Positions 26,542 to 63,830 of a stretch of 64,000 nucleotides of DNA are shown here, one piece after another. The notes beneath the pieces are model-generated. The model ran no database searches. It saw only the letters and a list, made by a program, of their open reading frames with translations, and had not been told where the DNA came from. A program made the position numbers and the translations under genes. Numbering within the stretch: the first letter of the stretch is position 1; each line of letters opens with the position of its first letter. The DNA lies in contig NC_009523.1 in assembly GCF_000016665.1 (NCBI RefSeq), positions 2,976,001 through 3,040,000 on the forward strand. Direction: 5' to 3'. The stretch is from Roseiflexus sp. RS-1 (GTDB taxonomy: Bacteria > Chloroflexota > Chloroflexia > Chloroflexales > Roseiflexaceae).

Positions 26542-26642
26542 GTCTACGCGAGAAGCAATCCGACATCATCCGTCGTCGGGCGTGATGCGGGCTAATGGAG
26601 ATTGAGAATTTAATCCGCTATGCCGAACTTGCCGTGGGGCTA

Positions 26643-28220
26643 ATGAAGATTGAGAATTTATTCCGCTATCCCGCGCTAGCCGTGGGGCTGAAGCCCTCGG
26701 CTATACGAGGCGAAGCCCGCCTGCGCGGGCTAGAGCGGAATAATTACTCAAAGACCATACGCCCTCAGCTATACAAGGCAAAGCCCGCCTGTGCGGGTTC
26801 GACCAACAGGCCGCGACAGCGGCCTTCGTCCTGCTAGCCGAGCCCTTCAGGGCGACGGCGCGCCGTGGGGCTGATGAACCGTGATTAAGCATTCCGGGAC
26901 TGACCTGCTCGTGCGGGCTGATGGAGATTGAGCATTAAATCCGCTATCCCGCGCTAGCCGTGGGGCTGAAGCCCTCGGCTATACGAGGCGAAGCCCGCCT
27001 GCGCGGGCTATACCGGAATAATTATTCAACGACTATAAGCCCTCGGCTATGCAAGGCGAAGCCCGCCTGTGCGGGTTCGACCAACAGGCCGCGACAGCGG
27101 CCTTCGTCCTGCTAGCCGAGCCCTTCAGGGCGACGGCGCGCCGTGGGGCTGATGAACCGTGATTAAGCATTCCGGGACTGACCTGCTCGTGCGGGCTGAT
27201 GGAGATTGAGCATTAAATCCGCTATCCCGCGCTAGCCGTGGGGCTGAAGCCCTCGGCTATACGAGGCGAAGCCCGCCTGCGCGGGCTATACCGGAATAAT
27301 TATTCAACGACTATAAGCCCTCGGCTATGCAAGGCGAAGCCCGCCTGTGCGGGTTCGACCAACAGGCCGCGACAGCGGCCTTCGTCCTGCTAGCCGAGCC
27401 CTTCAGGGCGACGGCGCGCCGTGGGGCTGATGAACCGTGATTAAGCATTCCGGGACTGACCTGCTCGTGCGGGCTGATGGAGATTGAGCATTAAATCCGC
27501 TATCCCGCGCTAGCCGTGGGGCTGAAGCCCTCGGCTAGGCGAGGCAAAGCCCGCCTGCGCGGGCTAGAGCGGAATAATTACTCAAAGACCATACGCCCTC
27601 AGCTATACAAGGCAAAGCCCGCCTGTGCGGGTTCGACCAACAGGCCGCGACAGCGGCCTTCGTCCTGCTAGCCGAGCCCTTCAGGGCGACGGCGCGCCGT
27701 GGGGCTGATGAACCGTGATTAAGCATTCCGGGACTGACCTGCTCGTGCGGGCTGATGGAGATTGAGCATTAAATCCGCTATCCCGCGCTAGCCGTGGGGC
27801 TGAAGCCCTCGGCTATACGAGGCGAAGCCCGCCTGCGCGGGCTATACCGGAATAATTATTCAACGACTATAAGCCCTCGGCTATGCAAGGCGAAGCCCGC
27901 CTGTGCGGGTTCGACCAACAGGCCGCGACAGCGGCCTTCGTCCTGCTAGCCGAGCCCTTCAGGGCGACGGCGCGCCGTGGGGCTGATGAACCGTGATTAA
28001 GCATTCCGGGACTGACCTGCTCGTGCGGGCTGATGGAGATTGAGCATTAAATCCGCTATCCCGCGCTAGCTGTCGGGCTGAAGCCCTCGGCTAGCCAAGG
28101 CGAAGCCCGCCTGCGCGGGCTAGAGCGGATTATTTCTTCAAAGACCATAAGCCCTCGGCTATACAAGGCAAAGCCCGCCTGCGCGGGCTAGAGCGGAATA
28201 ATTACTCAAAGACCATCAGT
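26643..28220. repeat. Tandem array with exact 278-bp period (five full units plus a partial one)
   Basis: The landmark ATG(G/A)AGATTGAG starts at 26643, 26921, 27199, 27477, 27755 and 28033, each 278 bases apart. Each unit contains several hairpins: GGGCTGAAGCCC, GCCCGCCTGCGCGGGC, AGGCCGC/GCGGCCT and GCCCTTCAGGGC. Units 1 and 4 share a TAGAGCGG..ACTCAAAGACC variant; units 2, 3 and 5 share TATACCGG..TTCAACGACT. The last unit is degenerate. Open frames within it (for example 26701-26892 and 27535-27726) are repeat artefacts. No transposase is seen. Confidence 0.92.
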
Positions 28221-37448: not shown

Positions 37449-39458
37449 CTACTTGCGGCGGAAGAATCCGCGTTTCTTCGGCTCTTCGACCGTCTGCCGC
37501 AGTTTTGCCAGGTCGCTCTCGATGCTGCCGCTCGCAACAGGCATTTCAGTTGTCGGACGGCTTTCACCGGGACGCAGCGGCGCCGGGATGACCGGCGCGG
37601 TCAGCACGGGGAGCGACGCCTCAACGACGCTATCGAGCGCAGGGTAGGGCAGAGGTTCGCGCTCGATGCCCAGCGCCATCAGCCACGACCAGAGCGCCTG
37701 CTGACGCGCCTGCGCGTCTTCCGGCAGGCGCAACGGTCTTCCGCGGGCATCGATGACCACACCGAGGGTGCTGCCATGGATGGCAGCCAGTTCTGAAGAC
37801 ACTTCCGCACCGGGCGCATTTCTGCCGATCCGCACGCCAGCAGCCGGGCGCAGCGTCAACGTGCCGTACCGACCAGGAGACAGGTTTAGACGCGCAATTT
37901 CGCCGTGAGCGACGCGCACCGTGTGCGTTGCGCCTCCTTCTACACGCAACTCGGCTTCAACAGCCAGTTCCCCTGCGTGACCTTCACCCAGCGTTGTTAC
38001 AACGGTCGCCAGCGGAGAGTTGTGCATCAGATCGCGTTCAAAAAGGGTCAATGCAGCATCAGGTTCGGAGAAAGCGAGCACACCACAGGCATTGATCAGA
38101 CCGAGCGCATCAAGATGGAGATCGAGCGCCATCATGTTCTCTTTCGATGTTGGTTGCAAGGCGTCGAGAACGGTCAGCGTCGTCAGTCCGGGATGCGGCG
38201 CATGCCGGAAGACCCCGCCGCCGATGAAGACACGGTCGTAAGCAGCGTCAGGGTGCTCGTCCAGCAGTTCTTCCAGCACGCACGACAGCGCCTCGCGCGC
38301 AACAGCATGCTCGATCAAAAGATCCTCACGGGTGAGCGGCGGAATGTGCGGACGCAGCATCTTGTTGAGCAGCCAGTGCACCAGATCACGCTCACTGATC
38401 GGGAATGGCAGCCAGCGTCGAATCGCTTCGACTCCCCGACGCGCCAGGACTGCACCGATCCCATACCCGATGCCGACGCCGCCCAACACCACCGGACTGT
38501 AACGCCCCTGGCTACACAGGTGCGCAGTTGTGCTCATTCCGCCGACATCCAGAGCAAGAACGCCGCTCCGGGTCTGCCCGGCGATAAAGCGCGTCATTAC
38601 GCCTGCTGCATCACATGAAGCGCGCGCTGGCACACGTGTCAATGCCGATATGCGTGCGAGCCGGGGCATCATCAAACGATCATACAGACGGACGATCTCA
38701 CGGCGCACCGGTTCGAGACACTCGACATCGAGCGTCGGTCGGATGTTGTCGGTAACGATCAGATCGGCGCGATCCGCAAGCGCAGCCGCAACCCTGTCAC
38801 GCGCCTGGCTGTTCCCGGCAAAAAGAACCGGTCGCCGTGCAACACTGCGCATTTGCTGACCCTGCGTATCGACCTGAATGTTCAACGACGCCAATCCGAT
38901 AATGTGCGCCAGGCGAACCAGCGCTTCCTGCGCACCCCCCTCGATCCCGCCGACGATCAACACTGCATCGGGGCGCACACCAAGGAGCGATTGCACCTGC
39001 CGCTCGATCCAGGTCAATCCAGAATCACCGATCACTCCGATCTGTTCCTGGCGTACCGCATCGTCGAGCGTGATCGTCTGGAGCACATGCGTGTATGTTG
39101 CACGTGCAGCACGCCGGGCGCTCCGCGCCGAAATGTCGCCAGCGATTGCGGCAATCACCAGACCCATCAAGCCAGCGGCGCTGCTGCACACGACCACACC
39201 ATCGATCCCCTGACCCTCTGCGTTCTTTGGCGTAACGAGTGTGCCATTGTCGATCAGGCGACGACCAGTTTGCTCCTCGATATGGCGGGCTGCTTCAAGA
39301 ATGGCAGACGCCGGATCATCAGCCGGTGCGAGACCGCCTGGCGCTTCGGATTGACCGATCAGGCGCGTTTCGCCATCAACAGCGTCAACCAGCCAGACAT
39401 GCGTCATCACGCTACCAATGTCGGCAACCAGAAGAGCGTGGAGTTTTGGCTCGGACAT
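37449..39458 (-). CDS. GlmL/MutL-family ASKHA ATPase-like protein
   Basis: A 669-residue protein of the glutamate mutase L family. The ASKHA nucleotide site is readable: phosphate-1 VADIGSVMTHVWLVD, phosphate-2 ALDVGGMSTTAHL and adenosine motif VFIGGGVFRHAP. Known members sit next to B12-dependent glutamate or ornithine mutases, but none is here. It is about 200 residues longer than the typical member, with a C-terminal beta-rich extension from about residue 490. It is the last gene of a five-gene operon of membrane proteins, 19 bases after the preceding stop. I infer an ATP-driven role in that complex. Confidence 0.82.
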   Translation of the reverse strand: MSEPKLHALLVADIGSVMTHVWLVDAVDGETRLIGQSEAPGGLAPADDPASAILEAARHIEEQTGRRLIDNGTLVTPKNAEGQGIDGVVVCSSAAGLMGLVIAAIAGDISARSARRAARATYTHVLQTITLDDAVRQEQIGVIGDSGLTWIERQVQSLLGVRPDAVLIVGGIEGGAQEALVRLAHIIGLASLNIQVDTQGQQMRSVARRPVLFAGNSQARDRVAAALADRADLIVTDNIRPTLDVECLEPVRREIVRLYDRLMMPRLARISALTRVPARASCDAAGVMTRFIAGQTRSGVLALDVGGMSTTAHLCSQGRYSPVVLGGVGIGYGIGAVLARRGVEAIRRWLPFPISERDLVHWLLNKMLRPHIPPLTREDLLIEHAVAREALSCVLEELLDEHPDAAYDRVFIGGGVFRHAPHPGLTTLTVLDALQPTSKENMMALDLHLDALGLINACGVLAFSEPDAALTLFERDLMHNSPLATVVTTLGEGHAGELAVEAELRVEGGATHTVRVAHGEIARLNLSPGRYGTLTLRPAAGVRIGRNAPGAEVSSELAAIHGSTLGVVIDARGRPLRLPEDAQARQQALWSWLMALGIEREPLPYPALDSVVEASLPVLTAPVIPAPLRPGESRPTTEMPVASGSIESDLAKLRQTVEEPKKRGFFRRK

Positions 39459-39477
39459 GCGATGCGATTTCCTGTTC

Positions 39478-40125
39478 TCAGGCGCCAAAGAAACTGCGAA
39501 CGACCGCCAGCACAAAGTTCAACCGTTCAACCAATGCACTCAGATAACTCTGCAACGCACCGGCAAAGAAAAAGCCGAACGCGACCATGATCAACCAGTG
39601 CCCGATCGTGGCTATTCCTCTGATCATGCGTCCGCTGCGGCTCTCCGGCGGCGTCGTGTAATAGAAGGACGCAAGCGTCAGAACAGTCCCGATGACCAGC
39701 ACTGTAACTCCAGCGATCGCACCGATGTCTCCAGAGGGTGCGCGTGCGGTATCACGGATCTGTGGCAGTAATGTGCCGATGATCGCGCCGCCGATCGCCA
39801 GCGCTCCTCCAACGCCGAAGACGAGCGCCAGCGGAATGTTCGCCAGCCACGACAGGCGCTGATCACCGGTGATACGAGGCAGCAGCAACACGCCGAGCGC
39901 CAGCGGCACGCCATAGAGCCAGATCATCGGCGGTTCAGCGCTCAACAGCGCCACCACTGCAGGACGGAGCGCCTGATGGTAGGCTACCACGAATGCCAGA
40001 CCGAGCGATACGCCAACGAACAGATACTGCGCGATACGAAACAATGGGTTGTCGCCTGCGATGCGGCTCAGAACCATCAGCGTCAGTACTGCTGCAACGA
40101 TATTGACGATGATGTCCTGAGTCAT
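39478..40125 (-). CDS. Polytopic membrane protein, operon member, function unknown
   Basis: A 215-residue protein with about six transmembrane helices and short loops. It starts MTQDIIVNIVAAVLTLMVLS, and a short loop of about 15 residues contains QIRDTARAPSG. I recognise no family. Its ATGA start overlaps the stop of the scaffold gene by 4 bases, a sign of translational coupling and probably of joint assembly. AGGAG lies 6 bases before the ATG. Confidence 0.8.
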   Translation of the reverse strand: MTQDIIVNIVAAVLTLMVLSRIAGDNPLFRIAQYLFVGVSLGLAFVVAYHQALRPAVVALLSAEPPMIWLYGVPLALGVLLLPRITGDQRLSWLANIPLALVFGVGGALAIGGAIIGTLLPQIRDTARAPSGDIGAIAGVTVLVIGTVLTLASFYYTTPPESRSGRMIRGIATIGHWLIMVAFGFFFAGALQSYLSALVERLNFVLAVVRSFFGA

Positions 40126-43100
40126 GATCGTCTCCTGCGCAGTGCAGCAACACCGACACCTGCCAGACCGAAGAGCAGAACAAGGGCGAACAGCAGAGTT
40201 GCCAGCCGCTGTTGTGCGATAGACCTGGCGATCATTGGATCGAATGAACCGGCATTCTGTCCAAGCGCAGCATACGCCAGTGCGCCACGGCGACCGGCAA
40301 GCGCCGTAACACCAGGCTGACGCATATACGGCTGCACAATCGGCGCCGCCTCTTCCGGCAGCAGGAAGACAAGTGACACCGGGCGGTCACCCGTCTGCGC
40401 CTGAGGATAGACCTGCTCCATCCATCCCTGGACGTCGGGTGTATCGTCTGCGAGAACAATGATGAGCGACAGATCATTCAGGCGCGCGATAGGATGACCG
40501 GTGTCGACGCCTGTGATCAGCACGCTGCCGGTGGCATCATCACCGCGGTAATCGCTGCGGAGCACAGTTTGAAAATCGCGCCCCACCATGCGTAGCGCCA
40601 TTTCGCCGCCGGGTTTGTAACCCAACAGGAGGTACCCTTCTCCTTGCTGGCGGTAACCCGCCTGGCGCAGGGTATCGAGAAGATCAAACTGTAACAATGT
40701 TCCCTGGGGATCAGTGCTCACCAATATCAGCTTGACATTCTGCGCTATCAACTGTCCGATCACCGCCTGTTCCAGGGGTCGCAATTCACCGACGCGCCGG
40801 GCATCCCACTCGTAGCCAATCAACACAACGTCGTTTGCGCCAAGTGCTGCGATTTGCTGGTATATCCCCGATGCGCCAGGGATAACCGGCGGCGTTTCAA
40901 GCGCCGGGACAAGCCCCGGAACCATGATGGCGACGATAACCAGGATGAGCAGAACCATCGAGATCATGCGCTCAAGACCAATGCGTTGAAGCGCGCCTAT
41001 CGGTTCAGGAAGCGGCAACGGCGTCGCAGCCGGGATTGGCTCGGCAGCCAGACGACTCAGAAGGTTGAGCGCTGCAACCTGTTCTTCAGTGCGTTTTGGC
41101 GCCGGAGGAGGAGGCAGTTTTGGCGTGGTGACCGTCACGCCGGTAATCGTCTCATCCTCTGCAATGCTGCCAAGACGTGTCAACCAGTCGAGATCGCGTC
41201 CGCTGAGCGGAGGTGGTTCCGGTTTTGGCTCCGGCTCGACACGCAACCATTCCGGCAGATCCATCCCGCTGAGCAGATCGCTGGATCCCCGCGGTGCAGC
41301 AGGTTCGGTTGTGTAGGACCGACCATCGTAGGCATCGGTTGCCGCAGGGACTTCAGCGCCGCGCAACCAGTCCGGCAATCCCGTCGCTCCTGGCGACGCA
41401 TCGGGCGCCTGAAGCCAGTCTGGCAGATCGGACGGTGTTGACGGGGGTGCGACAGGTTTCTCTTCCACCGAAGGAATGTCGGGAGTGGATAGTGCGCCGG
41501 TCAGCCAGTCGGGCAAGTCGCCAGCCGGCGGCGCGGTCTCCACTGGCGCAGCGGGAGGTGCAGGCGGCGCGGCGGCAATGTCGCGCAACCAGTCGGGCAG
41601 GTCGCCAGCCGGCGGCGTGGTTTCCGCGACCGGCGCCGATGGCGCAGCGGGAGGTGCAGGCGGTTGAGCGGCGATGTCGCGCAACCAGTCGGGCAGGTCG
41701 CCAGCCGGCGGCGCGGTCTCCGCGACCGGCGCAACCGGCGCGGCGGGAGGTGCAGGCGGTTGAGCGGCGATGTCACGCAACCAGTCGGGCAGGTCGCTGG
41801 CGGGCGGCGCGGTCTCCGCAACCGGCGCAGATGGCGCGGCAGGCGGTTGAGCGGCGATGTCGCGCAACCAGTCGGGCAGGTCGCTGGCGGGCGGCGCGGT
41901 CTCCGCAACCGGCGCAGATGGCGCGGCAGGCGGTTGAGCGGCGATGTCACGCAACCAGTCGGGCAGGTCGCTGGCGGGCGGCGCGGTCTCCGCAACCGGC
42001 GCAGATGGCGCGGCAGGCGGTTGAGCGGCGATGTCACGCAACCAGTCGGGCAGGTCGCTGGCGGGCGGCGCGGTCTCCGCAACCGGCGCAGATGGCGCGG
42101 CAGGCGGTTGAGCGGCGATGTCACGCAACCAGTCGGGCAGGTCGCCAGCCAGCGGCGCGGTCTCCGCAACCGGCGCAGATGGCGCGGCAGGCGGTTGAGC
42201 AGCGATGTCACGCAACCAGTCGGGCAGGTCGCTGGCGGGCGGTGCTGCGGGAGGCGCCGACGGCGTGGCGGCGATGTCGCGCAACCAGTCAGGCAGGTCG
42301 CCAGCGGGTGGTGCTGCGGGCATCGGCGCATCTGGCGCGGCGGGAGATGCAGGCGGTTGGGCGGCAATGTCACGCATCCAGTCGGGCAGGTCGCCAGCAG
42401 ATCGGGATTCTTCCGGTGATGCTTTCGTTGGTTCATCCTGGCGCAGCCAGGCAGGAAGTTCCTCCCCACGCGATGCGGTTTGCGGGGCAGGTGACGCCTG
42501 CGATGCGTTATCGACCGGCAATTCGCGCAACCACGCCGGGAGATCGACCGGTTCAATCGACTCATCAACAGCGCCAGACGCGGGGGGAAAGGTGCTACCG
42601 GCAGGTTGTTCCGGCGACTCATCAGATCCGTGGTCGAGTTGTTCGCCGATCAACCACGATGGCGCTTCGACGTCCTCGCCGCCGTCTGACCTGGTCGGTT
42701 GTTCGCCGATCAACCACGATGGCGCTTCGATGTCGCTGCCTGTCCCGGTCTGCGGAACATCCCCCGGCTCACCGGCGAATGTGAAGGGGGGCGGTTCAGT
42801 CCCGGCTTCCTCTTCGGGTGGTACGATAGTTGCACGCAGCGACTGAAGCCAGGAAGGTGGCGATACCTCTGGTGGCGCGGTCGTTTCAGTGGATGGGTGA
42901 ACCGTTTGATCGGGAACAGGCAACCAATCTGGCTCTGGATGCGACGGTTCGGGCGTCTGACTCAACCAGTCAGGAGTGGCAGACGGGGGTGCTTCGTCCT
43001 CATCGCGCAGCCACTCAGGCAAGCCAGCAAAAAGCGGGTCGCCGCTCGCCGGTTGATCAACATCCGGCGGCTTTGGCGGCAACGGCACATCTTGAAGCCA

Positions 43101-43136
43101 GGGCGGCAAATGAGGATTACGCTTCGACTGGCTCAC
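40122..43136 (-). CDS. Repeat-rich LPxWL-motif scaffold with C-terminal membrane domain
   Basis: A 1004-residue protein I cannot assign to a family. Residues 1 to about 700 are Pro/Ala/Asp-rich and disordered-looking, with more than twenty PxWL motifs. The core is about ten DLPDWLRDIAAQPPAAPS-type units, several in exact 87-bp (29-residue) tandem repeats at about 41848-42205. Then come a transmembrane helix (MISMVLLILVIVAIMVPGLV), a folded domain of about 270 residues with VVLIGYEWDARRVGELRPL, and a final helix with a basic RRRRS tail. The GTG start at 43136 has GGGAG upstream; ATG 43193 is an alternative. Confidence 0.8.
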   Translation of the reverse strand: MSQSKRNPHLPPWLQDVPLPPKPPDVDQPASGDPLFAGLPEWLRDEDEAPPSATPDWLSQTPEPSHPEPDWLPVPDQTVHPSTETTAPPEVSPPSWLQSLRATIVPPEEEAGTEPPPFTFAGEPGDVPQTGTGSDIEAPSWLIGEQPTRSDGGEDVEAPSWLIGEQLDHGSDESPEQPAGSTFPPASGAVDESIEPVDLPAWLRELPVDNASQASPAPQTASRGEELPAWLRQDEPTKASPEESRSAGDLPDWMRDIAAQPPASPAAPDAPMPAAPPAGDLPDWLRDIAATPSAPPAAPPASDLPDWLRDIAAQPPAAPSAPVAETAPLAGDLPDWLRDIAAQPPAAPSAPVAETAPPASDLPDWLRDIAAQPPAAPSAPVAETAPPASDLPDWLRDIAAQPPAAPSAPVAETAPPASDLPDWLRDIAAQPPAAPSAPVAETAPPASDLPDWLRDIAAQPPAPPAAPVAPVAETAPPAGDLPDWLRDIAAQPPAPPAAPSAPVAETTPPAGDLPDWLRDIAAAPPAPPAAPVETAPPAGDLPDWLTGALSTPDIPSVEEKPVAPPSTPSDLPDWLQAPDASPGATGLPDWLRGAEVPAATDAYDGRSYTTEPAAPRGSSDLLSGMDLPEWLRVEPEPKPEPPPLSGRDLDWLTRLGSIAEDETITGVTVTTPKLPPPPAPKRTEEQVAALNLLSRLAAEPIPAATPLPLPEPIGALQRIGLERMISMVLLILVIVAIMVPGLVPALETPPVIPGASGIYQQIAALGANDVVLIGYEWDARRVGELRPLEQAVIGQLIAQNVKLILVSTDPQGTLLQFDLLDTLRQAGYRQQGEGYLLLGYKPGGEMALRMVGRDFQTVLRSDYRGDDATGSVLITGVDTGHPIARLNDLSLIIVLADDTPDVQGWMEQVYPQAQTGDRPVSLVFLLPEEAAPIVQPYMRQPGVTALAGRRGALAYAALGQNAGSFDPMIARSIAQQRLATLLFALVLLFGLAGVGVAALRRRRS
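41848..42204. repeat. 87-bp coding tandem repeats within the scaffold gene
   Basis: The TGAGCGGCGATGTC landmark recurs every 87 bases (for example 41848, 41935, 42022), with nearly identical copies encoding a 29-residue DLPDWLRDIAAQ unit. Near-identity at DNA level implies recent expansion or homogenisation. Confidence 0.88.
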
Positions 43137-43196
43137 CACCCGCTCCCTGGACGCTGATATTTCTGAAGCGGCGAACCGCCTGGAAGCGTCCATTCA

Positions 43197-43868
43197 TCAA
43201 CGATCAAGGTACGGTTGATCGAACCCGAGCAACACCCGTACCCCTGCAACCAATGCGCCGATAGCAGCGCCGATCAGTAAGCCGCGTGCAGCGGCAAGCA
43301 CGACATAATCCGAAAACCAGCGCAGACCGTCACCGATCAATGGCGCCAGTTCCAGTTGCGGCAACGCCGTCGCAACGAGCACAGCCAGCGCCACCATAAT
43401 GATCACCAGCGCGTCGGCGGTACGGCGCCGCGCGGCACGCAGCGCGGCGCTCAGGCTAAAAAACGTCAGCAGCGCCAGCAGCGAACTTGCCAGCGGCGTG
43501 TAGACTGCGCTGAAAACAATGCGAACTGGTTGTTCGATCAGGCTCGACGGGAACGTGAGGCTGCCATCCGGGTTCTGCAATGGGTACAGTGTTCCCACAA
43601 CAATGACAACGACCATTGCTGCCAGGAGGATCAGGCTATACCCCCAATCCGTGTCACGCCGTGTAACGCGCCCGATATGATTGCCAGCGACATTCACCAG
43701 ACCGACCACCAGTGCCAGCGCAGCAATCAGAGCCGCCCAGTCGAGCACCGTTTGCGCCAGAAAACTGACGACCGGCAACGGACCGGTGAAATCAAGCAGC
43801 ACCAGCAGTCCAACGACACCGGCGACCAGAGTGGCGACCAGGCGTTTTGGATCGCGCAGAAAGGACAT
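43197..43868 (-). CDS. Polytopic membrane protein, operon member, function unknown
   Basis: A 223-residue protein with about six transmembrane helices, opening MSFLRDPKRLVATLVAGVVG and ending in a short hydrophilic GFDQPYLDR tail. No family is recognised. GGAG lies 7 bases before the ATG. It starts 14 bases after the DUF6754-like gene stop, and its stop is about 60 bases before the preferred GTG start of the scaffold gene (or 3 bases before the alternative ATG). Confidence 0.8.
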   Translation of the reverse strand: MSFLRDPKRLVATLVAGVVGLLVLLDFTGPLPVVSFLAQTVLDWAALIAALALVVGLVNVAGNHIGRVTRRDTDWGYSLILLAAMVVVIVVGTLYPLQNPDGSLTFPSSLIEQPVRIVFSAVYTPLASSLLALLTFFSLSAALRAARRRTADALVIIMVALAVLVATALPQLELAPLIGDGLRWFSDYVVLAAARGLLIGAAIGALVAGVRVLLGFDQPYLDR

Positions 43869-43882
43869 CGCATCACTCCGCG

Positions 43883-44656
43883 TTACGTCCCGATAAACGA
43901 TTGCGCCGCCTGCCAGAGCGCCAGCGTAACAATCGCAACAATTGCGACCGTGCGCAGCGCATCATGGGTCAGGAGACGTCCCTGCGCTTCCGGCGCGCGC
44001 GACAGATACGCTTCGGCAGCATACATATCTTCGCCGATCAGCACACCCTCACTGGTCAGATAAAGCAGGGGCAGAGCCGTCGATGTGGTAGCACCGGCTA
44101 CCTGCGGTATGCCCTGTTGCGCACCTGCCCCGCTTGCCAGCAGCACTTCATACCCGAAACTGCCGATCAACTGACTCGCTTCAAAACGCTGTCGCCCGTA
44201 CAGCATACTCACGCCGGACGCATATGCCATTGGATCCTGCTGCGCCAGCAACTGCACATTGCCAGGATTGTAATCCTGACCCAGACCAGCGCGCTGATAC
44301 GCCTGGCGCAGGGTTCCACGAAGCGCCAGATGCGCCACTGCGTCGCCGGAACTGGCAACCACCGGAATGCCGCTCAACGCAGCTTCGGTGGCAGTACGCT
44401 CAGCGGCAAGCAGCCCTGCAATCGTTTCCGCCGTCGTGGCGCGTGCACCAATCGTGCCGCTGCCCGGTGAAAGGTGAATGGCGCGCCCGGTTTCAGCACC
44501 GCCTCCCAACCCTTGCCGGAGTGCGTCGAGCGCAGGAAGCGGGCGACGACCGAAGGTGCGCCGTCGGTCGAGTGCACGGGCATGATAGAGGAGCGTCAGG
44601 ATGATGACAATGAAAACGATCAGAAGCAGAGCGAGCGTCTGCAGGGGGAGATCCAC
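43883..44656 (-). CDS. DUF6754-like membrane protein, first gene of the operon
   Basis: A 257-residue protein with an N-terminal helix (LQTLALLLIVFIVIILTLLY), a soluble domain and a C-terminal helix (VAIVAIVTLALWQ). The soluble domain carries GRAIHLSPGSGTIGARATTAETIAGL and AYQRAGLGQDYNPGNVQLLA. From memory these resemble the uncharacterised DUF6754 family; not verified. The GTG at 44656 is preferred to the GTG at 44671 because GGAGG is 6 bases before it. It leads a compact five-gene run of the same orientation ending at 37449. Confidence 0.75.
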   Translation of the reverse strand: MDLPLQTLALLLIVFIVIILTLLYHARALDRRRTFGRRPLPALDALRQGLGGGAETGRAIHLSPGSGTIGARATTAETIAGLLAAERTATEAALSGIPVVASSGDAVAHLALRGTLRQAYQRAGLGQDYNPGNVQLLAQQDPMAYASGVSMLYGRQRFEASQLIGSFGYEVLLASGAGAQQGIPQVAGATTSTALPLLYLTSEGVLIGEDMYAAEAYLSRAPEAQGRLLTHDALRTVAIVAIVTLALWQAAQSFIGT

Positions 44657-44731: not shown

Positions 44732-44971
44732 TCAACAGTCGCGGTTCAGCAGATCGTGTAACATGCGCCAGCCGCGTGCATCGCAGAGCGCATCGATTGT
44801 GCATGTCCAGCGATTTCCGGGGATAAACGGACGCGCAAAAAGCGTCACCTGACTGGCGAGGAAGTCGAGCGGAGCGATAATGTCGAGCATGATCCGCGCC
44901 GGTGTCGTCAACCCGCGTTGTGCAATCGCTCTGGCAAGTTGCTCGATTGGTTCGGTGTGCGGTTCTTCCAT
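44732..44971 (-). CDS. Small conserved hypothetical protein (79 residues)
   Basis: A short protein, MEEPHTEPIEQLARAIAQRG at the N-terminus, then a segment rich in Pro and Phe (LDIIAPLDFLASQVTLFARP) and a C-terminal RGWRMLHDLLNRDC. It looks like a soluble or peripheral helical protein; I recall similar small Chloroflexota proteins but no function. The heptamer array begins a few bases upstream of its ATG, where a ribosome site would be expected, so none is visible. It is followed by the DUF6754-like operon. Confidence 0.6.
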   Translation of the reverse strand: MEEPHTEPIEQLARAIAQRGLTTPARIMLDIIAPLDFLASQVTLFARPFIPGNRWTCTIDALCDARGWRMLHDLLNRDC

Positions 44972-44976
44972 GTTTC

Positions 44977-45067
44977 TGAGAACTGAGAACTGAGAACCAA
45001 GAACCAAGAACTAAGAACTGAGAACCGAGAACCGAGAACCGAGAACCAAGAACTGAGAACTGAGAAC
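44977..45067. repeat. TGAGAAC heptamer array, 13 units
   Basis: Thirteen uninterrupted 7-bp units (91 bases) filling the gap between the dtd stop and the small gene start. A fourteenth degenerate unit (45068-45074) overlaps the dtd stop codon. Confidence 0.95.
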
Positions 45068-45072
45068 TGAGA

Positions 45073-45961: not shown

Positions 45962-46010
45962 TGAGAACCAGGAACTGAGAACTGAGAACCAGGAACTGAG
46001 AACTGAGAAC
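45962..46010. repeat. TGAGAAC/CAGGAAC heptamer array, 7 units
   Basis: Seven 7-bp units directly abutting the thioesterase start codon (cat 45957-45959). Confidence 0.92.
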
Positions 46011-46074
46011 TGACTTTCTGACCCTTATTATTGTAGCATGGATAACAATCTGCACTTGTCGTCTTTGCCGCTTT

Positions 46075-49182: not shown

Positions 49183-50418
49183 GTGCATCATCGTGTCATT
49201 CAAGCGGCATACGTGAGAGAAGACGTACAACCAGTCGCAACGCCGCAGGGGTCGGTTGCCGAAGTGCTGGCAGCATTTATTCGCCTGGGTTTGACCTCGT
49301 TCGGCGGACCGACCGCCCACCTGGGGTATTTTCGGGAAGAGTTCGTCGTTCGACGGCGCTGGCTGGATGATCAGACCTACGCCGATCTGGTGGCGCTCTG
49401 CCAGTTTCTGCCCGGTCCGGCAAGCAGTCAGACCGGCATTGCGCTCGGCGTCCTGCGCGCCGGTTTGCCGGGCGGCTTCGCGGCGTGGGTCGGGTTCACC
49501 ATTCCATCGGCGATTTTGATGATCGTAGCCGCATATGGCGTCGCGTCGCTTAGTGCAGACACAGCGGCGTTACACGGACTGAAAGTCGTCGCTGTGGCTG
49601 TCGTGGCTCAGGCGGTGTGGGGTATGGCGCGCACGCTCTGCCCCGACCGCGAGCGCGCGACAATGGCGATTCTTGCGGCTGTAGCATTGCTCGTCTGGAG
49701 CAATGCGCTGGCGCAGATCGCCATTATTGCTGCTGGCGGAATTGTCGGCTGGCGATTGTTGCGTAGCGGCGCGCCAGCGGCAGCGCCGTCGTCGCTGGCG
49801 GCGTTCGATCATCGCCTGGCTATCGGGTGCTGGATCGCGTTCTTCGGGTTGCTCATCGCGCTGCCGCTGGCGCGCACGGTCTTCCCGTTCCATGCACTCG
49901 AACTTTTCGACAGTTTCTACCGCGCTGGCGCACTGGTCTTCGGCGGCGGGCACGTCGTTCTGCCGCTGCTCCATACTGAAGTCGTGTCGCCTGGATGGAT
50001 CAGTGATGCGCAATTTATCGCCGGTTACGGCATGGCGCAGGCAGTGCCAGGACCACTTTTTACATTTGCGGCATATCTGGGAACAATTCAGACCACAACG
50101 CCCAACGGTTGGGCAGGAGGGATTCTGGCGTTGCTGGCGATCTTTCTGCCTGCCTGGCTGCTGGTGATTGGCGCGCTCCCGTTCTGGGACTGGTTGCGCG
50201 CCAGAACGGAGGTCCAGGCAGCGTTGCGCGGCATTAATGCCGCAGTCGTCGGCATTCTGCTTGCCACGCTGTACACGCCGGTGATGACCAGTGCTATCAT
50301 GATGCCGCTCGACGCAGCGCTTGCGCTTGCCTGCTTTGGCATGCTGACGTTGTGGAAACTGCCGCCCTGGCTGGTTGTCGTTGTTGCAGGGGGGATCGGT
50401 TGGGTGGTGCGTGTGTGA
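49183..50418 (+). CDS. chrA: Chromate transporter family protein (long ChrA type)
   Basis: A 411-residue protein with two homologous halves and about ten transmembrane helices. Each half opens with a ChrA signature: FGGPTAHLGYFREEFV, QFLPGPASSQTGIALG in the first, FGGGHVVLPLLHTEVV and GYGMAQAVPGPLFTFAAYLG in the second. The family exports chromate, possibly by proton exchange. The start is uncertain; GTG 49183 is the longest. Its stop TGA is the first three bases of a heptamer array. Confidence 0.9.
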   Translation: MHHRVIQAAYVREDVQPVATPQGSVAEVLAAFIRLGLTSFGGPTAHLGYFREEFVVRRRWLDDQTYADLVALCQFLPGPASSQTGIALGVLRAGLPGGFAAWVGFTIPSAILMIVAAYGVASLSADTAALHGLKVVAVAVVAQAVWGMARTLCPDRERATMAILAAVALLVWSNALAQIAIIAAGGIVGWRLLRSGAPAAAPSSLAAFDHRLAIGCWIAFFGLLIALPLARTVFPFHALELFDSFYRAGALVFGGGHVVLPLLHTEVVSPGWISDAQFIAGYGMAQAVPGPLFTFAAYLGTIQTTTPNGWAGGILALLAIFLPAWLLVIGALPFWDWLRARTEVQAALRGINAAVVGILLATLYTPVMTSAIMMPLDAALALACFGMLTLWKLPPWLVVVVAGGIGWVVRV

Positions 50419-50506
50419 GAACTGGGAACTGAGAACTGAGAACTAAGAACTGAGAACTGAGAAATGAGAACTAAGAACTGAGAACTGAGAACTGAGAACC
50501 GAGAAC
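50416..50506. repeat. TGAGAAC heptamer array, 13 units
   Basis: Thirteen 7-bp units. The first unit supplies the TGA stop codon of the chromate transporter gene. It fills most of the gap to the P-type ATPase gene. Confidence 0.95.
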
Positions 50507-52957: not shown

Positions 52958-55900
52958 CTAGCGAACGGTCAGCGGCAGGAATACCCGGTACTGCCCGGCT
53001 GAAGAAGAGACCGTGAAATCCTGCCCGCTCAGATCGCCAGCGACCGTCACGGTGCGCGAGGCGGGCGCGAAGGCGTACCCGTCAAGCGAAGGGGTAAGCG
53101 TGTATGCGCCCGCCGGGACGCCGCTCAGCGCGTAGAAGCCCTGCGCATCGGTCGTGGCGCTGCGCGTGCCGTCAGAGATGGTCACCCCTGCCACGCCGTT
53201 CCCCGCGCCGTCGGTTACCCGCCCGCGAATCGCGTAGGTCACGAGGGTCGCCGTGAAATCCTGCCCGCTCAGGTCGCCGGTGACCGTCACAGTGCGCGAG
53301 GCGGGCGCAAAGGCGTACCCGTCGCGGGATGGAGTGAGCGTGTATGCGCCCGCTGGGACGCCGCTCAGCGCGTAGAAGCCCTGCGCATCGGTCGTGGCGC
53401 TGCGCGTGCCGTCAGAGATGGTCACCCCTGCCACGCCGTTCCCCGCGCCGTCGGTTACCCGCCCGCGAATCGCGTAGGTCACGAGGGTCGCCGTGAAATC
53501 CTGCCCGCTCACTTCGCCGGTGACCGTCACGGTGCGCGAGGCGGGCGCGAAAGCGTACCCGTCGCGGGATGGAGTGAGCGTGTATGCGCCCGCCGGGACG
53601 CCGCTCAGCGCGTAGAAGCCCTGCGCATCGGTCGTGGCGCTGCGCGTTCCATCGGAGATGGTCACGCCTGCGATGCCGTTTCCGGCGCTATCGGTCACCC
53701 GCCCGCGAATGACATAGGTCGCAAGGGTCGCCGTGAAATCCTGCCCGCTCAGATGGCGGTTGACTGTAATCCGGCGCCGCTCTGGATTGAACGTGTAGCC
53801 GTTGCGAGACGGCACGAGCCAATACTCGCCCGGCGGTACGTTCAAGGCATAGCGCCCCTGGGCATCGGTCGTGGCGCTGCGCGTCCCATTAGAGATGGTA
53901 ACGCCTGCGATGCCGTTTCCGGCGCTATCGGTCACCCGCCCGCTGATGGTGCAGGAGAGACAGGTTGCGACAAAATCCTGCCCGTTGAGATCGCCATTAA
54001 CCGTGATCCAGCGTTGAGTCGGATTGAACACATAGGTATTGTGGGATGGAGTGAGCCAATACCCGCCTTGCGGCACATTCGTCAGAGCATAGCGCCCCTG
54101 GGCATCAGTTGTGGCGCTGCGCGTTCCATCAGAGATGGTCACGCCTGCGATGCCGTTCCCTGTGCTATCGGTCACCCGCCCGCGAATGACATAGGTCACG
54201 AGGGTCGCCGTGAAATCCTGTCCGTTGAGATCGCCATTAACCGTGATCCAGCGTTGAGTCGGATTGAACACATAGGTATTGTGGGATGGAGTGAGCCAAT
54301 ACCCGCCTTGCGGCACATTCGTCAGAGCATAGCGCCCCTGGGCATCAGTTGTGGCGCTGCGCGTTCCATCAGAGATGGTCACGCCTGCGATGCCGTTCCC
54401 TGTGCTATCGGTCACCCGCCCGCGAATGACATAGGTCACGAGGGTCGCCGTGAAATCCTGTCCGTTGAGATCGCCATTAACCGTGATCCAGCGTTGAGTC
54501 GGATTGAACACATAGGTATTGTGGGATGGAGTGAGCCAATACCCGCCTTGCGGCACATTCGTCAGAGCATAGCGCCCCTGGGCATCGGTCGTGGCGCTGC
54601 GCGTTCCATCGGAGATGGTCACGCCTGCGATGCCGTTCCCTGCGCTATCGGTCACCCGCCCGCGAATGACATAGGTCGCAAGGGTCGCCGTGAAATCCTG
54701 CCCGCTCAGATGGCGGTTGACTGTAATCCGGCGCCGCTCTGGATTGAACGTGTAGCCGTTGCGAGACGGCACGAGCCAATACTCGCCCGGCGGTACGTTC
54801 AAGGCATAGCGCCCCTGGGCATCGGTCGTGGCGCTGCGCGTCCCATTAGAGATGGTAACGCCTGCGATGCCGTTTCCGGCGCCATCGGTCACCCGCCCGC
54901 TGATGGTGCAGGAGAGACAGGTTGCGACAAAATCCTGCCCGTTGAGATCGCCATTAACCGTGATCCAGCGTTGAGTCGGATTGAACACATAGGTATTGTG
55001 GGATGGAGTGAGCCAATACCCGCCTTGCGGCACATTCGTCAGAGCATAGCGCCCCTGGGCATCAGTTGTGGCGCTGCGCGTTCCATCAGAGATGGTCACG
55101 CCTGCGATGCCGTTCCCTGCGCCATCGGTCACCTGCCCGCTGACGGTGTAGGTTGGAAGGATCGCAAAGTCCTGCCGATTCAGATTTCTGCCCGCGTTGA
55201 TAGTCACCGTGCGGCTGGATGGAGAAAAGACGAGACTGCTGCGCGATGGAGTGAGGGTATATGTGCCCGGAGGAACATGCTTCACAACGTACATGCCATA
55301 CTGATCGGTGAATGCACTCCGGACGCCATCAGACACCACAACATTCGCTATGCCACTCCCCAGCGACGTTACCTGTCCCGAAATCGCGGACGTGCCCGGC
55401 GCCAGGCGATCATAGTACGCATAGTCGATCCGTCGACCGATACCCGACACCCCGTAGCCGATCCACATATATCCGCCTTCACCCCACATGCTGCCCCACG
55501 AGTTGCGCAGACGCCACGCGCCCCGACTGCCTCTGCTATCGTCCCATCCCACCAGCACCACTGCATGGTTGATGCCTCCGTTGCATGCGGCTGACTCATC
55601 GGTCTCGAAGACTCCTGATCGGTACCACATAAAGCGCGAACCCGCGCAGACATAGGCGGACACCGGACCGTGCTCATAGATGATGCGCTTGATGGTAGCG
55701 ATGTCGGCATTGAAGACCTGGTTCCACGCCAGGAGACGTTCGTGGTGGGGCAGTGCGCGGGTGAGCGGCACATCCTGACCAAGGTACGGAAGGTCGCTTT
55801 CATAGACGGCGCCCGCCTCTGTTTGATGCGCTGGAAGATCACCGATGAACAGGTCATATGCCGGTCCCCCTCCATTACACGTACCGTGTGTTCCCGCCGA

Positions 55901-59900: not shown

Positions 59901-61156
59901 ACAGCGTCCCCGGTGCAGCCGGATACAACCTCTACCGCAGTCCGTTGAGCGGCGGCGGTTTCGTGAAGGTCAACAATGCGCCGCTGAGCGCAACCGCCTA
60001 CACCGACGCCGGGCTGCGCAATGCGCGCGACTACTTCTACGTCGTCACATCCCTGGACGAGAAAGGGAACGAAAGCGCATTCTCGAACGAAGTCCAGGCG
60101 ATGCCTCGCCTCCAGATCGGATGGGCGAACCTGCAATGGCCCCCATCGATTACCCACACCATCAGCGCAATCAACCGCACCCCGCTGATCTTCGGTCAGG
60201 TCTGGATCGATGGCGTTACCAACCGTCCGGGAGCGACGGAAGGATTGCGCGCGCAACTCGGGTATGGTCCACGCGACAGCGACCCGGCAGGCAACCCCGC
60301 ATGGATCTGGATCGAGGCTGAGTTCAACGTCGATGCTGGCAACAACGACGAGTTCAAAGCCAGTCTGCTGCCTGATCAAACCGGAGATTTCGACTACGCT
60401 TATCGCTACAGCACGACCAATGGACGCGAATGGACCTATGCCGACCTGGACGGCATCGGCAACGGCTACAGCCCATCACAGGCGGGCAAACTCACGGTCG
60501 TCGCCAGCAGCGACACCACGCCGCCAGCGACGCCAACCGGTCTGACTGTCGTCACCGCTTCGCCAGCAGGCATTACCCTGCGCTGGAACGCGGTGACTGG
60601 CGATCCGACCCTCTACGGCTACGAAGTGCGTCGCAGCAGCGTGGCAGGCGGACCGTACACCACGATTGCGACGGTCACCGGCGTCGAGTACACCGACACG
60701 TCCATCACCCAGGGCGCAACCTACTACTACGTCGTTCGCGCGGTGGATACGTCGTTCAACCGCTCCGCCAATTCCGCCGAAGTCGCGGCGACCGCCGAAC
60801 TGCGGACGGTGAGCGTCACATTTACCGTGACTATACCACCCACGACCCCGGCAGGCAGTACAGTCTACATCGCCGGGTTCCTCGACCGTCTCGACGGCAA
60901 CCTGCCGCAGTGGAATCCCGGCGGCGTGGCGCTGACCCAGACCGGTCCGAACCAGTGGTCGATCACACTCACCGGTAAGGAGACAACCCAGATCGAGTAC
61001 AAGTACACCCTTGGTTCGTGGGATTACGTCGAGAAGGGTGCGGCGTGCGACGAGATCGCCAACCGCCAGTTGACTCTCACCTATGGTGTGAGCGGTGTGC
61101 AGATCGTGAACGATAGCGTACCAAACTGGCGCAATGTTGCGCCGTGCGGCAACTGA
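56951..61156 (+). CDS. Secreted multidomain GH13 alpha-amylase/pullulanase
   Basis: A 1401-residue exported starch-degrading enzyme. A signal peptide (about 1-33) is followed by two X25-type pullulanase domains (ELGCPGDWQP in each), a neopullulanase-like N-domain, and a GH13 barrel. The barrel regions are DSVFNH (I, about 547), GWRLDVMGD (II, nucleophile Asp, about 650), IIGELW (III, acid Glu, about 681) and LVGSHDTE (IV, about 761). Two FN3 domains and a C-terminal CBM20-like domain (SVTFTVTIPPTTPAGSTVYI) end the chain. ATG 56951 follows AAGGAG. It attacks alpha-1,4 and perhaps alpha-1,6 glucan bonds outside the cell. Confidence 0.93.
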   Translation: MSHDRRYRWTALFALFGLVIATFALPGAPRVVRASDTPTPASVTIAGSFQSELGCPGDWQPECTVTRLVYDATDQVWQATFTIPAGSWEYKAALNGSWDENYGANAQRNGSNIALSLSSPAPVRFYYDHETHWVTSNRNTRIVTAPGDYQSELGCPGDWQPDCLRSWLQDPDGDGTFSATVTGLPAGHYQFKIAIDENWSENYGAGSTPGGANIPFSVPAPGYRVTFRFVSATNTPSVTVVSSGAQPDNNVEWDGVRHDSRDPLYRTPGGAVPAGTPVTIRLRTFHNDVTSVRLRVYDLNASAQRFYDMAPAATDVACYQEGLDGKTCDFWEVTLNEASPNNLWYRFIVTDGSDTDYYDDNTPALDGGLGGMTDDQEDHSWALMFYDPAFTVPEWAKNAVIYQIFPDRFRNGDPRNDPRTGDSRYDDPVIALPWGELPEGYCRNYSDAATNCPWRFDDTPPSWSPTKESPRGRDYYGGDLRGVIGRLDYLKNLGVTVIYFNPIFHAKSNHRYDTYDYFRIDPALGTLADFRRLVREAERRGIRVIVDSVFNHMSSDSPQFDRYGYYATLGACESAASPYRDWFRFRRPGPGEPSPCAPSTPGGDDTYYVGWFGFDSIPEIRKENPAVLNYFVIGPNSVSRYWLRQGASGWRLDVMGDSSFPPDYWTTFRTVVRETRHDALIIGELWQKDSTLLRHLRGDTADTTMNYRLRDAIIGLLTPGPFDSKGFADSGRQITPSEFANRISSIREDYPDAAYLTLMNLVGSHDTERILWTLTPGAETRADKEFNAANLANGKQRLRIASLIQFTMPGAPTIYYGDEVGVTGDDDPDDRRTYPWVETGGNPDRSLLRHYSDLARIRHHYRSLHAGNLRFLMADDAAGTVAYARISGDDAAIVAINRSSQSRTVDIPVAGVVPDGTAFFPSYCVANDQLKDWLNVQNGTVRVTLNPMSAVLLTSYLADLTPPPVPTSLRVTGEGDGQVSLAWNSVPGAAGYNLYRSPLSGGGFVKVNNAPLSATAYTDAGLRNARDYFYVVTSLDEKGNESAFSNEVQAMPRLQIGWANLQWPPSITHTISAINRTPLIFGQVWIDGVTNRPGATEGLRAQLGYGPRDSDPAGNPAWIWIEAEFNVDAGNNDEFKASLLPDQTGDFDYAYRYSTTNGREWTYADLDGIGNGYSPSQAGKLTVVASSDTTPPATPTGLTVVTASPAGITLRWNAVTGDPTLYGYEVRRSSVAGGPYTTIATVTGVEYTDTSITQGATYYYVVRAVDTSFNRSANSAEVAATAELRTVSVTFTVTIPPTTPAGSTVYIAGFLDRLDGNLPQWNPGGVALTQTGPNQWSITLTGKETTQIEYKYTLGSWDYVEKGAACDEIANRQLTLTYGVSGVQIVNDSVPNWRNVAPCGN

Positions 61157-61185
61157 AAACCAATCCGGGGGCGATCCATCGGCGT

Positions 61186-61221
61186 GGCGGAGGCGGTGCA
61201 CTGAACCGCCTCCGCCGCATT
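61186..61221 (+). terminator. Intrinsic terminator after the amylase gene
   Basis: GGCGGAGGCGGT and ACCGCCTCCGCC form a perfect 12-bp stem with a 7-base loop, followed by GCATTTT, 30 bases after the stop. Confidence 0.88.
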
Positions 61222-61290
61222 TTGAGCGGATATAGTATTCCTGACAGATGGAGCGTTTTCTGGCGCCTCCTGGTCCCGGCGGAAATCTCT

Positions 61291-61318
61291 TTGCACCGCG
61301 TATGCGCTGTGATACAAT
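61291..61318 (+). promoter_or_regulatory. Promoter of the MntA-like gene
   Basis: TTGCAC, 16 bases, then TGA-TACAAT (extended -10 at 61310-61318). It lies about 50 bases before the ATG. Confidence 0.5.
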
Positions 61319-61370
61319 TCTCTCTCATAACGGACTGCGCATCCGGTGCCCCTGACACGGAGATCAAGCT

Positions 61371-61673
61371 ATGAAAAACATCCATCTCTCTCCTGAATGT
61401 ATTGCAGCATTCTGCCGGAAGCACGGCATCCGGCAGCTGGCGGTCTTCGGTTCAGCGTTACGGGACGACTTCAGGCCGGATAGTGATGTGGATATTCTGG
61501 TCGAGTTCGAGCCAGACCGCATTCCTACCCTCTTTGATATTGCTGGCATGGAACAGGAACTCTCAATGCTGTTGGGAGGACGAACGGTTGACCTGCGCAC
61601 GCCGGAGGATCTCAGTCCGTATTTCCGAAGTCAAGTCATCGCTGAAGCAGAAGTACAGTATGCAGCCGGATGA
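61371..61673 (+). CDS. MntA-like nucleotidyltransferase antitoxin
   Basis: A 100-residue minimal nucleotidyltransferase with the signature [18 protein letters not shown], in which GS and the two Asp of DVD bind nucleotide and metal. Known MntA antitoxins AMPylate the HepT toxin and so neutralise it. The frame is intact with all key residues. GGAG precedes the ATG. It overlaps the following HepT-like gene by 14 bases, the normal arrangement for such pairs. Confidence 0.88.
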
Positions 61674-61936
61674 TCTGATCCGACTTCAGCACATGCTGGA
61701 TGCCGCTCGCGAGGCCGTAGGATTTATTCGCCACCGTAACCGGGGTGATCTGGATCACGATCGCCAGCTTACGTGGGCATTGGTCAAAGCTGATGTGCTG
61801 GTCTATTCCGAGGCGGAATGCCAGCGACGCAGCCGGACGCAGGGCGCTGCGCTGTACCGGACGCGCAAGGAAGAAAGACTCCTCTATGAATCTGCATTTT
61901 GAAGAGGTCTGGCGGTCGCTGCGCCTGGTAGCCCCT
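61660..61936 (+). pseudogene. HepT-like toxin, frameshifted and truncated
   Basis: The frame starting at ATG 61660 reads [20 protein letters not shown] and LTWALVKAD, clear HepT-type helices, but ends after 80 residues at 61902 where intact HepT proteins have about 110-120. The RX4-6H RNase motif expected near the C-terminus is absent. A segment in another frame (61866-61936) reads MNLHFEEVWRSL, like the end of HepT. I infer a frameshift plus decay, so the toxin is probably dead. A short functional form cannot be excluded. Confidence 0.7.
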
Positions 61937-61964
61937 TGACATTGATCACGTGTTGATATATAGT
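61936..61964 (+). promoter_or_regulatory. Consensus-like promoter of the PD-(D/E)XK gene
   Basis: TTGACA (61936-61941), 17 bases, then TATAGT (61959-61964). This is the most canonical promoter in the window and lacks the extended TG of the local type, as expected for an acquired gene. Confidence 0.7.
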
Positions 61965-62012
61965 CTTATATGACAACAGGTTGCGCAACAAAACAGGAAG
62001 TGAGCGACTGCT

Positions 62013-63497
62013 ATGAGCAATGAGCAAAATCAGTTTCTTGAATCAATCCTGCAGGAACTCAAAAACATAACGGCGGAGCTGCAACTTTTGAGAAGTGAGT
62101 TGAGATTATCGCCTTATGCAAGATCTGAAAAGACTGTTTTATCCAGTTCACCCAGACAAGTGGTGGACTCCCTCGAAAAGACTGAAGGAGAAAGGTCTGA
62201 TGAGACTGTTTTAGCTGGTTCACCCGGACAGGTTGTGGATTCCCCTGACGAGACTGAAGAAGAAAAGGCTTTAGCTGTCTATGATTGGCTCACCGCCAGG
62301 GGAATTACTGTCAAAAATTACCGCGAACAAAGTGCGGTGGATGCGGTATTTGATCAGCTAGCGATGTTCCTGGGGGAAAGATTCAAAAATCTGTCACGCA
62401 TCTATGAATCCATCAAGCGCAGTCTATCACAGGGTGGCAGTGTTACACTAAATTTATCCTCTAGCAGTCAATCAGAGATAGCAGACTCTACCCAGTTTTG
62501 CACAATGCTGTATTCATACGCATTTTTGTCATCCTACCACTATAACAAGCCTACAAAGACGATATACGCAGCTCCACAAAGAGTCGGAAAAGTCATTAAT
62601 TTCTTCACTGGAGGATGGTTCGAGCGATATATCTACCTGAAGATCTTCTCCTTTCTCGTCCAAAACAGACTGGAGTTTACCTGCCTGCTCAATCCACAAA
62701 TCACCTTCCCAAATGGTGACGATTTTGAGCTTGACGTGCTTTTTTTAGTGAATAACCAGCCTTTATGGCTGGAGTGTAAGACCGGAGAATATCAGACTCA
62801 CGTAGCCAAGTACTCAAATGCGAGAAAGGTGTTAGGAATACCAAAGCAAAGAGCAGTTCTTGTTGTTCTAGACATTTCTGAAGATATCAGTGAAAACCTC
62901 ACCAGTTTGTACGATATAACCGTAGCGAACGAGAACAACTTCACCAAGGCAGTACTCGCGGCTGTCGGACTTTCGCAAGATCAAGAATCCGTTGCGCCAT
63001 CTTATCCCACCATTACCGCAACTCCAGGCGGTCTTTCTACACTGCTTAACAAAGCCAGTCTGCGTCCTGTTCCAGAATATCGACAGCAAGTAATAAATGA
63101 GTTGATTACACTGGTAAGTTCACTTAATCAACCTGTCTCAATAACTGAAGTAAAATCTGTTCTGGCTGAAAAGGTACAGGCATCAAAAAGTCAATTGCAG
63201 GACATACTCAACGCAATAGTACGAGGTGGATGCTTATTGGACGATAATGGACTGACAGTCTCGTCCTTCACTTCTCCCTTCTCAAAACTGGTATCTCATG
63301 ACCCGGCGGTCATAGAGAGCAAGTGCATCGAAAGCTATGTTCGAGCAGTGTTACTCACTGAACCAACCTACTTCGAGAACCCAAGCAACATCGATGAATT
63401 TCAACGAGTCGTTGGTGGCACGGCGCCAGATATGACGACGATCAGCAAATTGAGAGAACAGCTATTTAGACCAGACGCTGCACCCGATCATAGTTAG
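62013..63497 (+). CDS. Card1/DUF1887-like PD-(D/E)XK nuclease-like protein
   Basis: A 494-residue protein with a short N-terminal coiled coil (1-35) and a linker holding two copies of a 24-residue unit (ETVLxxSPxQVVDS, about 39-82). A nuclease-like core follows: GGWFERYIYLKI (Glu204), FELDVLFLVNNQP (Asp241) and LWLECKTGEY (Glu254, Lys256). This order matches the Card1/Can2/DUF1887 nuclease domain. The C-terminal third is helical with a winged-helix-like segment (SITEVKSVLAEKVQ). No CRISPR array or cas gene is in the window. The gene is clearly more AT-rich than its neighbours, which suggests transfer. Confidence 0.75.
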   Translation: MSNEQNQFLESILQELKNITAELQLLRSELRLSPYARSEKTVLSSSPRQVVDSLEKTEGERSDETVLAGSPGQVVDSPDETEEEKALAVYDWLTARGITVKNYREQSAVDAVFDQLAMFLGERFKNLSRIYESIKRSLSQGGSVTLNLSSSSQSEIADSTQFCTMLYSYAFLSSYHYNKPTKTIYAAPQRVGKVINFFTGGWFERYIYLKIFSFLVQNRLEFTCLLNPQITFPNGDDFELDVLFLVNNQPLWLECKTGEYQTHVAKYSNARKVLGIPKQRAVLVVLDISEDISENLTSLYDITVANENNFTKAVLAAVGLSQDQESVAPSYPTITATPGGLSTLLNKASLRPVPEYRQQVINELITLVSSLNQPVSITEVKSVLAEKVQASKSQLQDILNAIVRGGCLLDDNGLTVSSFTSPFSKLVSHDPAVIESKCIESYVRAVLLTEPTYFENPSNIDEFQRVVGGTAPDMTTISKLREQLFRPDAAPDHS

Positions 63498-63830
63498 AGG
63501 AATGCCCGGCCTGCTGTCCACTCGATGCACGGTTGAAGTCAGCTTCAACGCCCCTGACCGACTGACAGCGCAGCACAACTATATCAAGCCCATGATCCCG
63601 TTTGCGCCTGTTCTCATCCTTCATCAAGACTGCTAGCCTGCATTGTCTGGAAATGGTGCTACTTGCACTCATCCCATAACGCAGACATATACCCAGGCGC
63701 AATTCTTGTGCTGCCATCAAGAGCGAGGAAAGCGCAACAAGTAGATTTGATTCATCAGCACGCGCAACCTTCCGCCGCATGCACTCGTCACACATTGCAG
63801 GAACAGAAGAACGGAAAGGAAGGTTCCTCA
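63498..63830. other. Intergenic region without a supported gene
   Basis: The 333 bases between the nuclease and pspC show no convincing gene. A 143-codon minus frame (63466-63897) crosses both neighbours and has no ribosome site or recognisable product. Confidence 0.6.

Follow-up and report, generated by a model that had tools for sequence, protein, structure and literature searches.

The gene cluster described here apparently encodes a whole membrane machine that has gone undescribed and whose gene order is fixed over many families of Chloroflexota. The cluster is more than a chance assembly, as the same order recurs from family to family. It is situated in a 64-kb window, by which the whole stretch of DNA analysed is meant (G000:C1:2976001-3040000). 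The host genome consists of one contig of 5,801,598 bases (5.80 Mb). Roseiflexus MAGs are the nearest relatives that turned up, which places it in the Roseiflexus group of Chloroflexota. No tRNA genes are found within the 64-kb window. The cluster is composed of the following parts, given in window coordinates:

44732..44971, minus strand: small conserved protein of 79 aa, the first gene of the cluster, recognized by its profile homologues
43883..44656, minus strand: DUF6754 protein of 257 aa (Pfam PF20539), start codon GTG with GGAGG before it
43197..43868, minus strand: first six-TM protein, 223 aa, from hydropathy
40122..43136, minus strand: scaffold of 1004 aa with a disordered LPxWL tail and two TMs, best start GTG 43136
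41505..42342, minus strand: LPDWL units of the scaffold, coded by tandem repeats of 87 bp and 69 bp, from Tandem Repeats Finder
40125..41024, minus strand: C-terminal 300 aa of the scaffold, with TM1, a Rossmann-like domain (AlphaFold2 model; predicted extracytoplasmic), TM2 and a basic tail
39478..40125, minus strand: second six-TM protein, 215 aa, with homologues in 59 of the 251 genomes sampled
37449..39458, minus strand: long MutL-family ASKHA protein of 669 aa (the ATPase), start ATG 39458, Pfam MutL
37539..38012, minus strand: C-terminal domain that carries the DARGRPL motif, at about residues 483-640 of the ATPase

The initial annotation had claimed five genes on the minus strand, and their coordinates, their gaps and a 4-base ATGA overlap were all re-found; the sixth gene, that of the 79-residue protein (44971-44732), had been overlooked. 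The DUF6754 gene is followed after 14 bases by the gene of the first six-TM protein, and this one after 60 bases by the scaffold gene if the best start is used. An alternative in-frame ATG at 43193 would give a scaffold of 1023 residues and a gap of 3 bases. The scaffold gene and the second six-TM gene share the ATGA overlap, and 19 bases separate the latter from the ATPase gene.

The sample for the genome counts comprises 251 Chloroflexota genomes. DUF6754 is present in 55 of these, and MutL-family matches over the cut-off are present in 103. The MutL gene lies on the same contig and strand as DUF6754 in 43 of the 55 genomes, always downstream and 2.2-6.3 kb off, and on a separate contig in 11. 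In several of these split cases the break lies close to the scaffold gene with its many repeats, which short-read assembly would probably explain. The remaining genome, G105, is absent from the MutL list, and in it a MutL fragment adjoins the module at the end of a contig. The second six-TM protein has a MutL gene directly downstream in 58 of its 59 genomes (56 from the lists, and G105 and G136 upon inspection). The prospect of a conserved synteny, raised at the outset, is thus borne out by 43 of 43 contiguous cases for DUF6754 and MutL and by these 58 for the second six-TM protein.

The order of the genes is equally constant. In 32 of 32 linked loci (L017-L048), each from a separate genome, the five families follow one another in identical order on one strand; these loci were picked for the closeness of DUF6754 to MutL, and the genome tallies (43/55 and 58/59) are the unbiased figures. 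The two six-TM proteins are always paired in the loci compared. A profile made from the 79-residue protein, which belongs to no Pfam or NCBIfam family, finds 36 frames, which immediately precede DUF6754 in almost all loci that have the module, with no homologue seen in L042 and L063. In the taxonomic order of the window 22 of 24 genomes carry the module; it is not universal there, because G142 and G222 are without it. A single candidate module without MutL was encountered, in G184 (locus L097, G184:C11), where the contig ends inside the scaffold gene; downstream of the second six-TM gene come those for a STAND-type NTPase that contains a Trans_reg_C domain and for a PspA/IM30 protein. No relatives of the second six-TM protein were found in viral contigs or plasmids, and none of the ATPase in plasmids.

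The DUF6754 protein had been recognized as DUF6754-like from the beginning, and with 117.6 bits against a cut-off of 27 it is a clear member of PF20539, a domain of unknown function. It has a single TM at each end and an Arg-rich stretch behind TM1, so that its central domain is predicted by the positive-inside rule to be cytosolic. A structure model from 3 sequences (pLDDT 40) is not usable. Neither of the six-TM proteins matches a Pfam family over the cut-off, and 26 homologues of the first one are also devoid of Pfam families, except for one weak stray match. Searches of PDB sequences with the profiles of DUF6754, the scaffold and both six-TM proteins gave nothing usable.

The scaffold proves to be the LPxWL protein that it was first taken for, with 1004 residues from GTG 43136 and 23 P-x-W-[LMI] motifs. 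In its gene a unit of 87 bp is repeated in tandem 8.3 times (41505-42242, Tandem Repeats Finder). The sole Pfam match, BRK, reaches 44.1 bits (cut-off 23) in the repeat region with no single stretch passing. The scaffold gene holds 14 of the 29 LP[DE]WL-coding sites of the host genome, the others being scattered, and clusters of such sites occur nowhere else. The tail of the homologues often opens with a Cys4 zinc ribbon, and the number of P-x-W-L copies per homologue varies from 0 to 63. In the taxonomic order of the window 469 of the 554 tail Trp residues fall in P-x-W-[LMI]. Some scaffold members carry 0-2 motifs.

Between its two TMs the scaffold has a domain of about 200 residues, for which the AlphaFold2 model (pLDDT 62.7, pTM 0.60, from 6 sequences) indicates, with moderate confidence, a Rossmann-like fold. 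With this model of pLDDT 63 as the query, Foldseek finds nothing at E < 0.001, and VIA gives Z up to 9.6 for generic Rossmann folds; RCK/TrkA nucleotide-binding domains are among its matches, with generic scores. The W and Q of a WxEQ motif in the C-terminal 300 residues of the scaffold are invariant in 35 homologues. That the tail and the C-terminus of the scaffold are cytosolic, with the Rossmann-like domain outside, is suggested by the zinc ribbon and by the basic C-terminal tail.

The ATPase had been called GlmL/MutL-like, of which the second name holds and the first does not. It matches the Pfam MutL family (PF13941) with 191.3 bits, the gathering cut-off being 27, and its score against the NCBIfam GlmL equivalog NF040745 is 57.6 bits, below the curated cut-off of 475. 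Two positive controls from the same phylum, the GlmL proteins of L071 and L072, score 600 and 567 bits, and their genes adjoin GlmS and GlmE. That the ATPase is GlmL is ruled out by its low score and by the absence of glutamate mutase from the host genome. GlmL proteins (NF040745, TIGR01319) have the MutL-family ASKHA fold and the phosphate motifs in common with it. However, they are about 460-480 residues long, whereas the long MutL proteins examined here have about 580-730 residues and carry the DARGRPL C-terminal domain, which is absent from the short GlmL. Their neighbours also differ, as GlmL is accompanied by GlmS/GlmE and long MutL by the membrane genes or by a gene for a barrel-sandwich/KOW protein. 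In a quick tree, the deep branches of which are poorly supported, the short GlmL proteins fall together and the window protein is grouped with Roseiflexus relatives.

The phosphate and adenosine motifs claimed for this ASKHA protein are present: the window ATPase keeps Phosphate-1 (DIGS..T), Phosphate-2 (DVGG..T) and the GGG adenosine motif, and most nucleotide motifs are kept in the membrane-operon group. One adenosine Gly is lost in most of 61 long MutL members. The Asp and Arg of DARGRPL are invariant in all 61, whereas the Asp of Phosphate-2 is lost in 14, 4 of them in membrane operons. Judging from this pattern of residues, the extra C-terminal domain seems to be more strongly constrained than the ATPase site, and hydrolysis would not be required everywhere.

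These observations make it possible to propose how the machine might be built. The products most likely form a physical complex, which would be located in the inner membrane and consist of DUF6754 with its two TMs and cytosolic domain, the two six-TM proteins, the two-TM scaffold and the small protein. The scaffold would expose its Rossmann-like domain outside and extend its long zinc-ribbon/LPxWL tail inside. The MutL-family ASKHA protein would be the dedicated cytosolic subunit, untied to a B12 mutase. A dedicated nucleotide-binding subunit is the best reading because of the near-absolute linkage, the lack of a mutase partner and the motifs retained in the membrane-operon group. Upon binding nucleotide, the ASKHA protein might act on the membrane complex as a conformational switch or as an assembly factor. 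It would be docked by the DARGRPL domain and, where present, by the multivalent LPxWL tail.

Such docking is modelled on PilM-PilN or FtsA-FtsN. PilM is an actin-fold protein located on the cytosolic side of a membrane scaffold, the cytosolic segment of which it binds. The likeness of the PilM-PilN-PilO system to the present one would lie in the position of the actin-fold protein at the cytosolic side, and a weak profile match of the ATPase to PilM (E 0.007) speaks for it; the differences are that the membrane proteins showed no relation in sequence and that six-TM proteins take their place here. FtsA is an actin homologue that meets the bitopic membrane protein FtsN (PMC7613929), a similar combination, although in the host genome FtsA is a separate gene. 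The full mechanism, with its membrane complex, dedicated ASKHA subunit, docking and switch, stands about evenly between being right and wrong.

The docking of the ATPase on LPxWL is plausible, but falls somewhat short of an even chance. It is weakened because family f15, in which the scaffolds of about 290 residues have no LPxWL tail, keeps the ATPase together with the membrane core, and because of the scaffold members with 0-2 motifs. It is conceivable that the ATPase, though part of the complex, has its docking site on DUF6754 or the six-TM proteins, and that the optional tail recruits another partner, such as a soluble enzyme or a protein of the cytoskeleton. The wide range of LPxWL copies and the tail-less scaffolds of f15 would agree with such an arrangement. 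However, a zinc-ribbon/LPxWL protein adjoins the ATPase even in families without membrane genes, and the neighbourhood contains no other recurrent partner gene that could explain the motif; this alternative arrangement is rather unlikely. In families f23, f39, f42 and f16 this protein is soluble and its gene precedes the long MutL gene; in families without membrane genes it sometimes ends in a basic, amphipathic-looking helix.

The constant pairing of the six-TM proteins and the putative Rossmann-like outer domain of the scaffold might also point to a transporter or channel formed by the six-TM pair, with DUF6754 and the scaffold domain binding the substrate and the ASKHA protein gating or energizing the transport. 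The RCK/TrkA domains in the VIA list would fit this, at their generic scores. However, no transporter family is matched recurrently in Pfam or PDB sequences, and no ASKHA protein is known to serve as a transport motor, so that a transporter is unlikely. A bolder extension of the dedicated-subunit reading is that long MutL is a cytoskeleton-like subunit, which assembles in a nucleotide-dependent manner along LPxWL arrays, with up to 60 or more motifs each, so that scaffold tails and ATPase together form a cluster or filament that is bound to the membrane and particular to Chloroflexota; this is decidedly unlikely.

The known relatives of the ATPase are presumed repair proteins of vitamin-B12 enzymes. 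The absence of a B12 mutase from the operon had been part of the initial annotation, and is upheld: glutamate mutase exceeds the cut-off in 4 of 251 genomes, the host not among them, and the ATPase homologues are not always beside a mutase. The ATPase might nevertheless reactivate a B12 enzyme encoded elsewhere, such as methylmalonyl-CoA mutase, while the membrane genes are merely co-transcribed. Methylmalonyl-CoA mutase is indeed present in 49 of 50 operon-bearing genomes including the host, where it lies far from the operon, and a few Anaerolineae-type genomes have a B12-binding gene divergently upstream of DUF6754. However, G072 possesses the operon (locus L036) and neither of the two mutases, and the divergent gene, as in G064 and G120, is a local occurrence confined to few genera. 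The near-absolute linkage of the ATPase to the membrane genes and the loss of the Phosphate-2 Asp in some members also disagree with such a role. A B12-mutase partner was rejected as a general explanation; reactivation of a distant enzyme is very improbable, and the ATPase very probably has no B12 role. In L033, L035 and L041 the divergent B12-binding gene upstream of DUF6754 is of the methylmalonyl-CoA mutase type and is followed by a gene of a likely MeaB-type GTPase.

That the cluster is a pilus or division apparatus, in which the ATPase would derive from PilM or FtsA by divergence and the remaining genes from PilN/PilO or divisome parts, is scarcely credible, since the weak best PDB profile match of the ATPase, to PilM (E 0.007), and the shared general architecture of an ASKHA protein with a membrane scaffold are opposed by its strong MutL match, by the host's own FtsA (G000:C1:4744683-4745192, 130.6 bits against 31.8) and by the lack of any Pfam match (E up to 1) of the five products to PilM_2, PilN or PilO, on which grounds a replacement of FtsA or PilM was rejected.

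The proposed dedicated subunit of the membrane complex has a second association. A protein of about 350 residues, with an RnfC_N-like barrel-sandwich domain (sub-threshold) and a Spt5/NusG-like KOW domain, occurs in 150 of the 251 genomes and is the most persistent neighbour of long MutL across the phylum, ahead of the membrane genes, which weighs against the proposed complex. Its gene directly follows long MutL both in genomes of the Anaerolineae type and in many families without membrane genes. The proposal that the ATPase serves a membrane complex is supported as far as the conserved, mutase-free operon goes, but is too narrow for these many families, which have the ATPase and no membrane module. 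In the taxonomic order of the window the barrel-sandwich/KOW gene is unlinked to long MutL; the host copy (G000:C1:654972-656099; L077:7967-9241) adjoins two genes for response regulators and others for subunits of ATP synthase, and the surroundings are similar in the relatives L079 and L081. Long MutL and the barrel-sandwich/KOW protein may thus be the older pair, to which the membrane module was added in certain lineages. Genomes of the Anaerolineae type also encode, downstream of the barrel-sandwich/KOW gene, a conserved protein of about 190 residues with an acidic N-terminus and TM segments (L029:3438-4007; similar in L035, L039, L040, L046 and L047).

We know of no described system with such a set of parts. 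In the open-access papers searched none names DUF6754, and none deals with GlmL together with Chloroflexi and ATPase. The six-TM pair, the scaffold (its repeats aside) and the small protein are without a Pfam family. The newness lies in the composition of the parts, and relatives beyond Chloroflexota could alter this judgement. The assigned role of the MutL/GlmL ATPase family rests largely on analogy, and a member set apart from a B12 mutase bears on the role of the whole family. The cluster also offers a testable case of an actin-fold ATPase placed opposite a multivalent short-motif scaffold.

Several other features of the window were observed. Heptamer repeats of the GAACTGA type are located between genes at 44976-45072, 45972-46013, 50416-50506 and 198-258. 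Two long tandem repeats are present, one of about 278 bp in 5.6 copies (26633-28187) and one of about 240 bp in 8.4 copies (53139-55140). The G+C content goes down to 0.529 at 60001-64000, where a 494-residue ORF is located at 62013-63497, and this part of the window is possibly acquired DNA.
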